Part shown: positions 320-25,201 of the stretch, piece after piece | Position numbering within the stretch: position 1 is the stretch's first letter | Layout: each line of letters opens with the position of its first letter | Origin: Verrucomicrobiales bacterium | Lineage (GTDB): Bacteria > Verrucomicrobiota > Verrucomicrobiia > Limisphaerales > Palsa-1400 | Assembly: GCA_003140095.1 (NCBI GenBank) | Contig: PLIU01000110.1 | Location: 1-44,286 of the forward strand | Length of the DNA stretch: 44,286 nt | Reading direction: 5' to 3' | Program-made: the position numbers and the translations under genes | The notes under the pieces: generated by a model | Databases searched by the model: none | What the model was told of the DNA's origin: nothing | Seen by the model: the letters and a program-made list of their open reading frames with translations, nothing else

Positions 320-350
320 TTGACTTTTTAAGATTTTCGCTTGCTATCTT
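320..350 (+). promoter_or_regulatory. Predicted sigma70 promoter of the BlaI/M56 operon
   Basis: A TTGACT -35 box at 320-325 and a TATCTT -10 box at 345-350 are separated by 19 bases. The -10 is preceded by TGC, an extended -10 that can compensate for the long spacer. The promoter abuts the operator repeats at 348-385, which fits repression by the downstream BlaI-type protein. Confidence 0.5.
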
Positions 351-385
351 ACAAATGTGGGATACAGTTTTCTTACAAACGTAAG
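348..385 (+). promoter_or_regulatory. Twin BlaI/MecI-type operator half-palindromes
   Basis: Two similar 14-base elements lie 10 bases apart: CTTACAAATGTGGG at 348-361 and CTTACAAACGTAAG at 372-385. The second has perfect CTTAC/GTAAG arms. BlaI/MecI repressors are known to bind TACA-N2-TGTA-like dyads as dimers. Both elements carry TACAAA followed by TGTG or CGTA. They sit between the -10 box and the repressor start at 392, so binding should block transcription of both genes (inference). Confidence 0.55.
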
Positions 386-391
386 AAGAAT

Positions 392-796
392 ATGAGCTTC
401 GAGACAAAACCTGAAAGTGAGGGAAAGAATCTGCCCAGGATTTCTGACGCGGAATGGACGGTGCTGAAGGCGGTCTGGCAACTGCAGACTCCGACCGCCC
501 GCGAAGTGGTGGAGAAACTCAAGGATGAAGCGAATTGGAAGCCCAAGACCATCCACACCCTCCTGAGCCGATTGGTGCAAAAGGGGGCGCTGACTACTGA
601 AAAGCCGAGACGGGAATATGTGTTCAAGCCGCTGGTCGCAGAACGGGAGTGCCGCCTGGCGGCCAGCCGGTCGTTCCTGGAAAAGGTGTTTGACGGGGAA
701 ATTGCGCCTTTCCTGGCTTGCTTCCTGGAGCGCGAAAAGCTCACGCGCGAGGAAATCGAGGAACTTAAGGCAATCCTGGAGGAAAAAGGTTCATGA
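392..796 (+). CDS. blaI: BlaI/MecI/CopY-family transcriptional repressor
   Basis: A 134-residue winged-helix repressor of the family that controls beta-lactamase, MecA or copper operons and is inactivated by proteolysis by a partner M56 protease. The N-terminal half shows the family pattern: ISDAEWTVLKAVW, then the wing segment KTIHTLLSRLVQKGAL, then a helical C-terminal dimerisation part. The start at 392 gives the usual family length; the frame could begin upstream at a TTG at 341, but that would lie inside the promoter. It overlaps the protease gene by four bases (ATGA at 793-796), so translation is coupled. Twin operators just upstream indicate autoregulation. The inducer is unknown; the partner lacks a penicillin-binding sensor, so an antibiotic-resistance role should not be assumed. 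Confidence 0.88.
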   Translation: MSFETKPESEGKNLPRISDAEWTVLKAVWQLQTPTAREVVEKLKDEANWKPKTIHTLLSRLVQKGALTTEKPRREYVFKPLVAERECRLAASRSFLEKVFDGEIAPFLACFLEREKLTREEIEELKAILEEKGS

Positions 797-2766
797 ATAC
801 ACTTCTGGCCCTGAGCGAGCGCGCGTTCGATTGGACTTGGAAGACTTCCCTAAACGCGGCTGTGCTCGCGGCGCTGGTTTTTCTGGCACAGAAACTCCTG
901 AGCCGATGGCTGACTCCGCGTTTCCGTTACACGCTAAGCCTGCTCATTTTCATCCGGTTGTTGTTCCCGCCGGTTCCTTCCAGCCCGCGCAGTTTGGAAA
1001 ACCTTTGCCGGCTTGGGTCTTCGCCCAAGGAATCCGCAGCCGCCACGATCGCCCCGGAGCCATTGACCGAGGAAGCCAATCCGGCGCGGCTGGCTGACAT
1101 TTCGGCTGCCGTTTCAACTGGATCTGCTTCCCGCATTTCACCCGTCATTTCCCACCTCCCCGCGCCTCTTGCGCCACGCCTGCCGGTGCGCGCCTGGATA
1201 AGCCTGGTTTGGGCGGGCGGATGTCTTGGCCTGGTGATGCTCGCCGGTTGGCGCTACCGGCAATGGCATGGCCTGATTGCGCGCGGGCAACCGATTTCCG
1301 ATCCGCCACTGCTGGCATTGCTTGACAGCGCCCGCGCGGCCATGGGCGTGCGTCGTCCAGTCAAGCTGATAGCCGTGACACGATTGAACAGCCCGGCTGT
1401 GTTCGGGTATAGGCGGGTCTGCCTGCTTTTGCCCCAAAGCGCAACAGGCCCATTGAGCGCACAGGAACTGCGCATGGTTTTCCTGCATGAAATGGCTCAT
1501 GTCCGCCGGCACGACGTTGGCCTGAACTTTTTGTTCATCGCCGTCCAATTCCTGCATTGGTTCAATCCTCTGGTCTGGCTGGCGATCCATCGGATTCGGG
1601 CCGATCGCGAATTGGTCTGCGACGGGATGGTGATGAGCCATCTGCCGGCGGCGCAGCGCCCACATTACGGACAAGTCCTGCTCAAACTGATGTCAGGATT
1701 CTCGGCGGAAACACCGGTTTTTGCCGGAGCGCTTCCCGTCGTTGGCAGCATACAAGAAATCAAACGGAGGTTAATTATGATCAAACATTACGGACATGGC
1801 AGTTTCGGAGCCGGTTTGGCGACCGCGTTGGCGGTGGCGGCGCTGACCTGCGCCACCTTTACGCGCGCCCAAGAACAAGTCGCGGGTGACGCCGATTGGA
1901 CGGACTGGAACAATCACCAAAGCATTGGCTCGTTCTACGCAGTCGCCGGCACGGCAAAGGAAACGGTCGCCGTCGGCATTGACGGACTCATCGCGACTCG
2001 CAACAACACCACCGGGGTTTGGACGACCCAGACCTTCACCGGCGATCCCGATTTTCGGGCCATTGTCTATGCGAATAACCGATATGTCATCGTCCGCGAG
2101 GCGGGCTTCATCATGACCAGCCCGGACGGACTTAAATGGACCAGCCGCACGTCTCCCACCGCAGAGAACTTGATGGGATTATTCTGGGACGGACATCAAT
2201 ACCTGGCCGGTGGGAACCGCGGAACAATATTATCCAGCCCAGACGGCATGAAGTGGGCCAGCCGCGATTCGGGCAGTCAAATAAACTTTTACAGTTTCAG
2301 CTACTCCGGCGCGCGCTATGTCGCCGTTGGGAATGATGGCATTCTCATCAGCAAGGATTCTGTTTCATGGATGGCGCCAACGACTGCTCCCAGGTCGGTG
2401 CCGTTCACAGCCTGCACGTGGACGGGCAAGGAGTTTCTCGCTTGCGGACTGGGAGAGGACAAAAATCCCACTATCTACACCAGCCCGGACGGCGATGTCT
2501 GGAGGTTACGTGACACCACGATTAGGGCATCGCTGCGCGCGGCGACGACCATCAAGGGCACGATTTACGTCGCCGGTGACAGCGTCATCGAGAAGTCCAC
2601 CGACGGCGGAGCGACGTGGACGGACACCTTCATGAACGTTGGCGGCAACAAGCTCTTCATGGGTTTAGCCAGCAACGGCGAGTATTTGATTGCCGCCGGA
2701 TTCAATCACAACGTCTGGGCTATGCCATTGTCAGCCAAGCCGGTTGTCAAACAGAATGAGCCATAA
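793..2766 (+). CDS. BlaR1-like M56 membrane protease fused to an Asp-box beta-propeller
   Basis: A 657-residue antirepressor-type protease. The first ~340 residues are the M56 module: hydrophobic segments near residues 20-40, 45-60 and 135-155, zinc motif H232-E-M-A-H236, and the third ligand E273 in the RELVCD motif. A fourth membrane segment lies near 335-355. The rest, outside the membrane, is a propeller of about six repeats of the type G-x-I-x-x-S-P-D-G-x-x-W, including a classical Asp box STDGGATW. Known BlaR1/MecR1 carry a penicillin-binding domain at this position, so this protein probably senses something else. Coupled to the repressor by an ATGA overlap. Oddity: GGAGG at 1766-1770 precedes an in-frame ATG at 1777, which would start a signal-peptide-like segment and release the propeller alone. 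Family assignment is firm; the ligand is unknown. Confidence 0.85.
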   Translation: MNTLLALSERAFDWTWKTSLNAAVLAALVFLAQKLLSRWLTPRFRYTLSLLIFIRLLFPPVPSSPRSLENLCRLGSSPKESAAATIAPEPLTEEANPARLADISAAVSTGSASRISPVISHLPAPLAPRLPVRAWISLVWAGGCLGLVMLAGWRYRQWHGLIARGQPISDPPLLALLDSARAAMGVRRPVKLIAVTRLNSPAVFGYRRVCLLLPQSATGPLSAQELRMVFLHEMAHVRRHDVGLNFLFIAVQFLHWFNPLVWLAIHRIRADRELVCDGMVMSHLPAAQRPHYGQVLLKLMSGFSAETPVFAGALPVVGSIQEIKRRLIMIKHYGHGSFGAGLATALAVAALTCATFTRAQEQVAGDADWTDWNNHQSIGSFYAVAGTAKETVAVGIDGLIATRNNTTGVWTTQTFTGDPDFRAIVYANNRYVIVREAGFIMTSPDGLKWTSRTSPTAENLMGLFWDGHQYLAGGNRGTILSSPDGMKWASRDSGSQINFYSFSYSGARYVAVGNDGILISKDSVSWMAPTTAPRSVPFTACTWTGKEFLACGLGEDKNPTIYTSPDGDVWRLRDTTIRASLRAATTIKGTIYVAGDSVIEKSTDGGATWTDTFMNVGGNKLFMGLASNGEYLIAAGFNHNVWAMPLSAKPVVKQNEP

Positions 2767-23017: not shown

Positions 23018-25201
23018 TTACCTTCGGGTTTCAACCGGAGTTTTATCCTCTTCTTCTTTGCCATAAGATCCATACCCGTAACCGTGATAATGAGAGTAAT
23101 AATAGCCGCCGCAGAGGCGACGGTTCGGCAAAAGGTTCAAGACAATCCCTCCAAGAGGGGCGTTAGCCCTTCTCAGAAATAGCACACTGCGCTCCACTAA
23201 TTTGCGCGACGTCTTGCAGCCATGAACCACCAGCACCACCATCTGCACTTTGCTGGCCAGCAGAAGCGTGTCGCTCACCGGCAAAAGCGGCGCTGCGTCA
23301 ATAACGATGCGGTCGAACTGAGTCAGTCCTTCGTTGAGAAATTGTTGGAAATCAGTCTGCATGAGCAACTCCGACGGGTTGGGCACGGAACGGCCGCTGG
23401 GCATCCAAAATAATGTTGAAATGTCTTTGTGTTGCTGGCAAAGCTGGTCAAATTTCGTGCGTCCCAAGAGGTAATCGGTGACGCCGGGCAAACGATGGCG
23501 TTTCCCGGTGAGAAACTCCTCAACCCTCGGGCGGTGCAAATCCATATCAACCAGCAGTGTGCGCAAACCCAGTTGCGCCAGGCTGGCCGCATAATTAACG
23601 GAGGCAAAAACTTTGCCTTCATTCGGTAGGGAGCTGGTAAAAAGATACGTTCTCCAGTTTTCTTCTCGCCCCAGCATCGAGATGGTGGCGCGCAAGGTGC
23701 GAAAGACTTCCGCTCCGGCGGAATTGCCATCCCCGACTGCCACCAATTTGTTGCTTGCTCCTGCGTCCTTCGGCAGCTTGGGTATAGCGCCCAAAACAGG
23801 CAGCAAGAAATGGCGCTCGACTTCATCCACCGTGCGGAAGGAAGTGTTAATGAAAGAAAGCACAAAGCTGATTCCCAAACCGACGGCCAGTCCGCCGAAA
23901 AGAGCCAGCCCGAAAATGAGTCTAATTCTTGGCGAAGCAGGCAGCTCGGGAGCCAAGGCTTTCTGAATGACTCGAATTCTTTCCGGCTTTATTTGTTCTG
24001 CGACCGTTGTCTCGTGGAGTCGGCTGATGAGGGCATCAAACTGTGCTTGGTCGGACTCCGCTTGGCGGGCGAGCACATTGAAATGGACGGCGGAGTCGCT
24101 GAGATGCATGGCGTTGGTTTCGGTGTCGTGAAACTCCGCCTCCAAACCGCGCTGGGAGGTCAAGGCATTTTGATGGATGATGCGCAGGCTTTCCTGCATG
24201 CGCGCGCGGGCCTTCAGCACCACTGCGGCCAGTTGTTGCTTGAGGCCGTCCAGTGAGGCGGCGGCCAAGACATATTTGGGATGCCTTTGGCGGCACCATA
24301 GGCGAATCAACACGAACGCATCGGCCTGCCGCTCCACTTCGCTGGAGATTTGCACCACGTCCGGGTCGGTGGCGATTTGCGGGTACGCCAGCAAGTCTTC
24401 GATATTGGTGCTCATTTTCAAGGAGTCCTGATAGGCTCCGTCGGCCTGCACGAGGTTGGCTTTGCTTTGCGTCAGGCGCTTGTTCAAGTCCTGAAGTTGC
24501 GGTGTAACAATGTCCTGGCTCTCTTGCAGAGAAACCAAGTGGCTTGTCTGGCGATAATCCTGCAAAGCTCGCTCGGACGCCTCCAGTTTGTCCTTCTGCC
24601 GATTGGCTTCCAATTGCAGAAATACTTTTGCGTTGGCGGTAGTGGTCCTTTGCATGAGCGCATCCTGTTCCAAATAGTTTTCAACCAGCGAATTGGCCAG
24701 TTGAGCGGCCAAGCGGGGGTCGGTATTGCGGACGGTAATGTCAATCAGACGCGTGTTGCCGCGCAACGAAGTTTTGACGTCATGCGCAAATCGTGTAATG
24801 GTTGCCTCGCGCGTCAACACCTTGGAACCCTTGGTCACAACCATCCCCTCTTGCGGCAGCAAATGATTTGTCTCCAGCACTTGTTCCAACAAAGCGGCGT
24901 TGCACAATTTCTCAACGACGGTGTACAGAATATCAAACCCGCGCATATCTTCGGATACCACCGGCTGGGCCTTGACGACTTTTGCGTCCTCTTGTTCCAC
25001 CTGGACCGTGCTGACCGCTTCATAAACGCGCAAAGCCCGTCCCACGTAAAAGGCGGCGGCCATCACCGCCAGCAGAACGCAGGAAACTATCAGCCAGCTT
25101 TTATCCTGCAGCAGCCGGATGACGCCGGGCAAATCCACAATGGCGCCGGAGGCGGAAGGTTTCGGCGAAGGAGGCAAATCAAGCGGCTCAAGGTTTTGCA
25201 T
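23018..25201 (-). CDS. Wzc-like polysaccharide co-polymerase / BY-kinase with altered Walker A
   Basis: A 727-residue protein. An N-terminal Wzz domain (first membrane helix ~33-55), a long coiled-coil periplasmic part (GSKVLTREATITRFAHDV, LQLEANRQKDKLEASERAL), and a second helix ~425-450 lead to a cytoplasmic BY-kinase domain. Walker A' LLVDMDLHRPR and Walker B IVIDAAP (D635) are present, but the Walker A loop reads PNEGK530-V-F where GK(S/T) is expected. The C-terminus has the tyrosine cluster GGYYYSHYHGYGYGSYG used for autophosphorylation. The family sets exopolysaccharide chain length and export. Loss of the Walker A hydroxyl residue predicts weak or absent kinase activity. Upstream DNA holds decayed IS copies, not a visible wza. 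Confidence 0.87.
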   Translation of the reverse strand: MQNLEPLDLPPSPKPSASGAIVDLPGVIRLLQDKSWLIVSCVLLAVMAAAFYVGRALRVYEAVSTVQVEQEDAKVVKAQPVVSEDMRGFDILYTVVEKLCNAALLEQVLETNHLLPQEGMVVTKGSKVLTREATITRFAHDVKTSLRGNTRLIDITVRNTDPRLAAQLANSLVENYLEQDALMQRTTTANAKVFLQLEANRQKDKLEASERALQDYRQTSHLVSLQESQDIVTPQLQDLNKRLTQSKANLVQADGAYQDSLKMSTNIEDLLAYPQIATDPDVVQISSEVERQADAFVLIRLWCRQRHPKYVLAAASLDGLKQQLAAVVLKARARMQESLRIIHQNALTSQRGLEAEFHDTETNAMHLSDSAVHFNVLARQAESDQAQFDALISRLHETTVAEQIKPERIRVIQKALAPELPASPRIRLIFGLALFGGLAVGLGISFVLSFINTSFRTVDEVERHFLLPVLGAIPKLPKDAGASNKLVAVGDGNSAGAEVFRTLRATISMLGREENWRTYLFTSSLPNEGKVFASVNYAASLAQLGLRTLLVDMDLHRPRVEEFLTGKRHRLPGVTDYLLGRTKFDQLCQQHKDISTLFWMPSGRSVPNPSELLMQTDFQQFLNEGLTQFDRIVIDAAPLLPVSDTLLLASKVQMVVLVVHGCKTSRKLVERSVLFLRRANAPLGGIVLNLLPNRRLCGGYYYSHYHGYGYGSYGKEEEDKTPVETRR

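Follow-up and report, generated by a model that had tools for sequence, protein, structure and literature searches.

A conserved, probable internal translation start in M56 sensor-protease genes of Verrucomicrobiota, and a possible free form of the sensor

BlaR1/MecR1 and their BlaI/MecI repressors are the closest described systems to the locus considered here, an M56 sensor-protease gene and the repressor gene before it, in a stretch of 44,286 nucleotides from a Verrucomicrobiales bacterium (assembly GCA_003140095.1, contig PLIU01000110.1, positions 1 to 44,286, forward strand; hereafter the window). The window gene resembles these systems in its metalloprotease domain with HExxH and an additional Glu, in its Lys-Arg-Arg (KRR) motif, in the adjoining BlaI-like gene with overlapping reading frames, and in its last hydrophobic helix, which is followed by a signal-peptidase-like site and a sensor; unlike them, it has a beta-propeller in place of the penicillin-binding domain and, inside the gene, a Shine-Dalgarno (SD) sequence with an ATG. 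In-frame internal starts are established for bacterial genes such as Escherichia coli cheA, infB, clpB and arcB, which give a full-length and a shorter C-terminal product, both cytoplasmic, whereas the start in the window gene would precede a signal peptide that doubles as a membrane helix.

The cryo-EM report (PMC9834060) places Arg294 of Staphylococcus aureus BlaR1 at the active site, and has SpsB cutting the receptor between Gly331 and Gln332, just past the last helix, with shedding of the sensor. Arg326 of the window protein aligns with Arg294. Shedding as described there resembles our proposal in that the sensor is set free by a cut at the matching position behind the last helix; it differs in being proteolysis of a full-length receptor, whereas for the window gene a separate translation start is proposed. 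Our reading, to which we give a probability of roughly two in three (0.68) from sequence comparison, is that one mRNA gives two proteins, a sensor-protease in the membrane and the sensor alone, exported in free form.

The window gene and its proposed internal start

The features on which the argument turns are the following.

793-2766, plus strand: M56 antirepressor-type sensor protease, 657 residues from an ATG start (PF05569, Peptidase_M56, 5.2e-51, residues 15-330, 174 bits, cut-off 31)
1486-1500, plus strand: HEMAH zinc motif, residues 232-236, read in the translation
1609-1611, plus strand: Glu273 in RELVCD, likely third zinc ligand, role by homology
1762-1770, plus strand: Lys324-Arg325-Arg326 (AAA CGG AGG), containing GGAGG at 1766-1770; Arg326 is invariant in 130/130 aligned genes
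1777-2766, plus strand: proposed short product from Met329, 329 residues, the last membrane helix serving as signal peptide, plus the propeller; proposed from conservation in relatives
1804-1860, plus strand: last membrane helix (TM4), residues 338-356, and putative signal-peptide core of the short product; hydropathy peak 1.76
1861-1872, plus strand: T357-R358-A359 / Q360, signal-peptidase-like site, by conservation and by the position of the SpsB cut described for S. aureus BlaR1
1897-2742, plus strand: beta-propeller sensor, residues about 369-650, seven blades by strand count (AlphaFold2 (AF2) model, Foldseek, VIA-align)

An earlier note on this DNA had read the gene as an antirepressor-type protease with an intact zinc site and had pointed to a GGAGG six bases before an in-frame ATG. 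The first point is borne out by the PF05569 match and by both motifs, and the second is exactly as described: GGAGG at 1766-1770 is followed by six bases and the ATG of Met329 at 1777, the whole motif spanning 1766-1779. The GGAGG arises because Arg325-Arg326 are encoded by CGG AGG, and its computed duplex with the anti-SD sequence (-10.7 kcal/mol) compares with -9.3 kcal/mol at the gene's own start at 793. Taken alone, the motif is unremarkable: the window has 6 instances of GGAGG-N5-8-ATG where 6.2 are expected, and GGAGG arises in this stretch of the gene with a probability of 0.054 under synonymous shuffling. A motif in one gene being no more than chance, relatives were needed and were therefore collected.

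Nucleotide conservation in relatives

The first set comprised 96 M56 genes, all distinct, taken from the order and the window's own genome; an enlarged set of 130 M56 genes drew on the order, on 29 loci at phylum level and on loci matching a pattern in which the ATG was required and the Arg codon free. Expected SD counts were computed from each gene's own codon usage. Codon 329 is ATG in 55/96 genes, and an SD 4-mer stands before it in 35 of these 55 against 12.6 expected (z 8.2); the same test at the genes' own starts gave 26/46 against 13.3 expected. Among the controls, five other Met columns had SD z values between -0.5 and 1.4, 1088 other internal ATGs had an SD at 100 (104.2 expected), and the rows of the 96-gene set with no start codon at 329 had one in 3/40 (about 7.7 expected). 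Exact GGAGG occurs in 6/96 genes, with 2.3 expected, and what relatives share is a run of purines of the SD class, frequently AGGAGA. The survey of homologues that the earlier note had named as a check thus found run and start codon conserved and the exact GGAGG rare, the opposite of the lack of conservation that would have told against the note's reading. In one gene (L028) TTG, another start codon, replaces the ATG, and AGGAGG is retained.

Because Arg326 is invariant, its codon is a clean probe. AGA or AGG encodes it in 50/72 genes of the enlarged set with a start codon at 329 versus 2/58 without; in the same 72 genes these codons account for 21/453 at eight other conserved Arg columns and for 154/1718 of all other Arg codons in the aligned part. 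After thinning to below 40% identity, the counts are 17/20 for genes with the start, 2/27 for those with no start and 9/95 for control Arg codons. Across 320 genomes the pattern was matched 24 times, in 16 genomes of 13 genera, and 20 of these matches have AGA/AGG; two (L162 and L166, one with AGA/AGG and one not) were not recovered as M56 rows and may be chance.

The mRNA around the site carries a further signal in tests in which the SD and start codons were held fixed. Predicted folding is weaker than in synonymous versions in 34/47 genes with both SD and start (p 3e-5), and GC content at third codon positions (GC3) is below expectation in 37/47 (p 6e-7). Genes with a start codon and no SD (n=25) have neither shift, and genes with no start (n=58) have no folding shift and a slightly raised GC3 (p 0.012). 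Both signals being confined to genes with SD and start, the SD, the start codon and an open mRNA go together.

Two natural experiments bear on the same point. Twenty M56 genes of one family (L273-L292; 18 distinct peptides), chosen for short open frames among the matches listed, have 47-69 residues after codon 329 and hence no sensor; the start codon at 329, AGA/AGG at Arg326 and the SD are all missing in 20/20. In genome G108, which belongs to the family of the window's genome, there is a stand-alone gene whose reading frame opens only a few codons before the motif. The M56 body is missing and TM4 and sensor remain; this gene is 48-49% identical to the short product of the M56 gene L038, and the equivalent ATG is its SD-preceded start. 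The L038 sensor, a relative of the G108 sensor, has no Pfam match, and other small relatives of the G108 sensor (L303, L304 and L305) have signal-peptide-like starts of their own and lack the motif. We also observed in G108 a blaI-M56 locus (L307, 727-4218) in which the M56 sensor frame seems to continue in another frame, with the stand-alone TM4-sensor gene directly after it.

In many relatives, then, selection acts on the nucleotides of the SD, of the start codon and of an open mRNA at codon 329, and the window gene has every element of the conserved internal start. Initiation of ribosomes at 1777, with export and cleavage of the short product, is what we infer from these sequences.

Outside the order, five genes within the 130 (L178, L181, L192, L194 and L195) have AAAAGGAGR or AAACGGAGA before the ATG. 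Three Bacillaceae BlaR1 genes (L207, L208 and L209) have no start codon at the equivalent of 329. Separately, an alphaproteobacterial M56 gene on a Sphingomonas parapaucimobilis plasmid (NZ_CP155757.1; L210, 1045-2658) has GGGAGG-N6-ATG at the codon equivalent to 329, and a Kurthia locus (L212) has AAAAGGAGA with its Met one codon later than that equivalent.

The last helix, the sensor and the locus

The short product would begin with MIKH (net charge +1 over residues 329-341), followed by the core at 338-356 and TRA/QEQ, with T357 and A359 at -3 and -1. Among rows with a residue at the position, Thr357 is found in 105/120 and Ala359 in 89/118, while the residues around them vary, as they should at a signal-peptidase site. 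That T-x-A follows TM4 also in genes of the order with no internal start and in most sensorless ones suggests signal-peptidase processing of many M56 proteins. The signal-peptide-like segment ending in TRA-QEQ that the earlier note described is present, although it is no added feature, being TM4 of the protease itself. Export of the short product is plausible from this conserved T-x-A and by analogy with S. aureus BlaR1, for which PMC9834060 describes a cut at the same place.

That a propeller replaces the penicillin-binding sensor holds: the C-terminus is a beta-propeller, and the match to NCBIfam blaR1_generic (147.7 bits, cut-off 400) covers residues 24-338 only. The structure prediction suggested for this region gave a confident propeller (predicted local distance difference test score, pLDDT, 87.3, from a three-row alignment, A2, of three homologues), and the whole-protein AF2 model (pLDDT 36) was not used. 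Asp-box-like motifs were found by pattern at 443, 482, 520, 564 and 602, and a sixth, degenerate one by eye; the model has seven blades, which makes the earlier count of about six repeats a slight undercount. The best Foldseek match is Ycf48 (1.2e-11, TM-score 0.71; PDB 5ojr, 2xbg), which is alike in fold only, at 14-15% identity, and the NCBIfam Ycf48 model NF010237 gives 16 bits against a cut-off of 326. VIA-align matched many propellers whose functions are unrelated (Z up to 29.9; the top rows include seven-bladed designs), and the fold therefore does not point to a function; a search of PDB chains by sequence with the propeller profile gave no match at E 0.01. DUF6242 (PF19755) is matched at 30.7 bits by the propeller alone (cut-off 29) and at 26.6 bits, below the cut-off, within the whole protein, and the F510_1955 family glycosylhydrolase of NCBIfam is matched in part at 42.6 bits, far under its cut-off of 175; neither match tells the function.

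Sensors are exchanged among output domains. Matches in the 320 genomes of the order were sorted by E-value, with 3 candidates scored per genome, and among the matches listed none spanned an M56 domain and this propeller together. The best M56 relative among them, G256, is 60% identical over residues 1-360 and has, by eye, another, internally repeated domain after a conserved ATFTRAQ. With the window protein as query, the nearest propeller relatives listed are in G232 (2.5e-109) and G237 (5.8e-97), metagenome-assembled genomes of uncultured Verrucomicrobia subdivision 3 bacteria, and the next propeller-only match listed is in G125 (8.1e-26). In G232 and G237 a propeller 57% identical to that of the window is the C-terminal part of a Ser/Thr kinase, the output domain thus being a kinase and not an M56 protease; the kinase assignment rests on a full gene read and a Pkinase match on the fetched part, the G237 kinase part lying outside the domain scan. 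Of two contig scans for propeller relatives, one had no matches and the other gave these kinases again. The propeller, on an M56 protease and on kinases, is therefore a portable sensor with two kinds of output. The kinase genes ending in the propeller (L055, 2088-5135, minus strand; L056, from G237) also have a weak, sub-threshold S26 match, and a sigma-factor-like open reading frame (by eye) lies upstream of the one in L055. The Pfam matches of the short products of ten genes with SD and start are Ig-like, WD40-like (two), laminin-G-like, kelch and CarboxypepD_reg-like, four having no match; judged from sequence, the sensor varies across such genes while the start plus TM4 is kept.

The locus around the gene adds the following features.

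320-350, plus strand: promoter-like TTGACT (320-325) and TATCTT (345-350) with a 19-base spacer, ahead of the repressor gene; found by eye
348-361, plus strand: operator-like CTTACAAATGTGGG, matching CTTACAAANGTAAG with two mismatches
372-385, plus strand: operator-like palindrome CTTACAAACGTAAG, the sole exact match to CTTACAAANGTAAG in the draft genome
392-796, plus strand: BlaI/MecI-like repressor, 134 residues from the ATG at 392 (PF03965, 6.3e-33, 114 bits, cut-off 22.6)

The repressor also matches NCBIfam BlaI_of_BCL (1.3e-37, 128.4 bits, under the cut-off of 180), and its stop and the M56 start share ATGA in overlapping frames. In the 657-residue protein hydropathy peaks at 18-36, 46-64, 134-152 and 338-356, and also at 247-265 and 299-317, and the BlaR1 structures 8exs/8exp match protease residues 196-332. 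The promoter-like pair is absent from a consensus promoter scan, which allowed spacers of 16-18. Two TCTTACAAAYGT repeats, spaced by 24 bases and the second of them palindromic, lie upstream of the repressor gene; repeats and palindrome together suggest autoregulation and nothing beyond it. Genome-wide counts cover the 7.8-Mb draft of 515 contigs, in which the window is contig C446. A regulon search with the palindrome was set aside, its one exact copy being at its own promoter; with one mismatch the pattern has 3 sites in all and the backward control pattern 11. Elsewhere in the window, four CAAACCCGGTCAAA-like 14-mer copies, two of them 10 bases apart, lie at 1-283, upstream of the repressor gene, and the protein encoded at 23018-25201 (minus strand) matches Wzz, GNVR and AAA_31, as polysaccharide-export proteins do.

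Two proposed products from one gene, and the alternatives

We propose the following mechanism. Translation from 793 would give a membrane M56 sensor-protease with its propeller outward, which on a signal would inactivate the BlaI-like repressor encoded upstream, by homology with BlaR1 and BlaI. Translation from 1777 would give the 329-residue protein, with TM4 as its signal peptide, and a cut after TRA (359) would release the propeller, 298 residues long, on the far side of the cytoplasmic membrane. The most likely use of a free sensor, of which we are less sure, would be to compete for or buffer the ligand and so set the threshold of the membrane receptor; it might delay the response or, if it rose with the operon, give negative feedback. 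Alternatively, it might serve as a carrier or enter mixed dimers in the membrane. Of the earlier note's idea that one gene makes both a membrane sensor and a secreted propeller, the internal start is now backed by nucleotide conservation in relatives, and export is plausible.

Several observations weigh against this reading. The SD 4-mer is found in only 47/72 rows with a start codon and also in 4/58 with none. The window's own genome contributes seven rows from other M56 loci: L020 has SD and ATG and the remaining six do not, the alignment of L015 among them being poor. The tree requires no fewer than 18 changes of the start codon and 21 of the SD, yet the 7 supported independent pairs are too few for significance: those changing in the same direction average 2.6 for the SD and 3.7 for AGA/AGG, and those in the opposite direction 0.0 (a single pair in a few of the pairings). 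Among 59 hold-out genes drawn from other orders, 8 have a start codon at 329, and one of these (L272) repeats L185; AGA/AGG at Arg326 is found in 5/8 start versus 10/51 non-start rows (p 0.02), or 4/7 without the repeat, in the same direction and weak, and the SD in 3 start rows (1.3 expected) and 9 non-start rows (12.0 expected). With so thin a hold-out signal, the case for an SD and start conserved beyond the needs of the protein is strong in the window's order and weak outside it. The sensorless genes are close relatives and so amount to fewer than 20 independent cases, and G108 is a single case in a fragmented draft (680 contigs, 67% complete). T-x-A is not peculiar to genes with the internal start: others have it too, and most of the sensorless genes carry it in the form TDA, so that by itself it is no argument for a short product.

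This last point favours the alternative that fares best, namely that free sensor comes mainly from signal-peptidase cleavage of the full-length protein, the internal start contributing little. It has its precedent in S. aureus, where SpsB cleaves off the sensor according to PMC9834060, and we regard it as unlikely but a real contender; it leaves the SD, start-codon and mRNA signals unexplained. Both routes may operate, giving the same mature propeller, which the internal start would supply without spending a receptor. Less likely again is that TM4 keeps the short product from being released, so that it would modulate the full-length protein by pairing with it in the membrane. TM4 would be retained if uncut, and the same report describes BlaR1 as a domain-swapped dimer; the conserved T-x-A stands against retention, and neither Arg326 nor the residues preceding it, whose BlaR1 equivalents (Arg294) are there described as lying on the swapped helix, are part of the short product.

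A third alternative, which we consider improbable, is that the SD-like run only slows ribosomes before TM4, aiding folding of the protease or insertion of the helix. The run does sit directly before TM4, but AGA/AGG tracks the start codon (50/72 versus 2/58) although genes with no start also have TM4, only genes with SD and start show the open-mRNA and GC3 signals, and the sensorless genes keep TM4 without the SD. That the motif is a by-product of a conserved KRR protein motif and codon bias is very improbable: KRRL recurs in S. aureus BlaR1, Arg326 is invariant and GGAGG has the probability of 0.054 under synonymous codons given above, but AGA/AGG stands at 21/453 in the eight control Arg columns against 50/72 at Arg326, and on these Arg-codon controls neither chance nor codon bias is accepted as a full account.

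M56 receptors, their pairing with BlaI and sensor shedding are already known. Judged by title and abstract opening, none of the open-licence papers listed in our searches describes an internal start in M56 genes, and within that scope we found no account of the combination proposed here, in which an internal start makes the last helix of a receptor serve a soluble receptor as its signal peptide.

If our reading of one mRNA with two products is true, bacteria encode a soluble and a membrane receptor in one gene, in a widespread family of signalling proteases; the logic of soluble receptors beside membrane receptors is known for animal cytokine receptors. Annotation of M56 loci would change, and the seldom-used codon for an invariant Arg would be explained. 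The free sensor would be a ready-made ligand-binding protein and so a handle on the ligands of varied sensors. More tentatively, and at somewhat less than even odds, many Verrucomicrobiota M56 genes may be two-product genes, giving a membrane receptor and, from a conserved internal start, its own soluble form, which the last helix would export and which would tune signalling by binding the same ligand outside. The start would then stay with TM4 when one sensor replaces another, and genes elsewhere may have similar starts.

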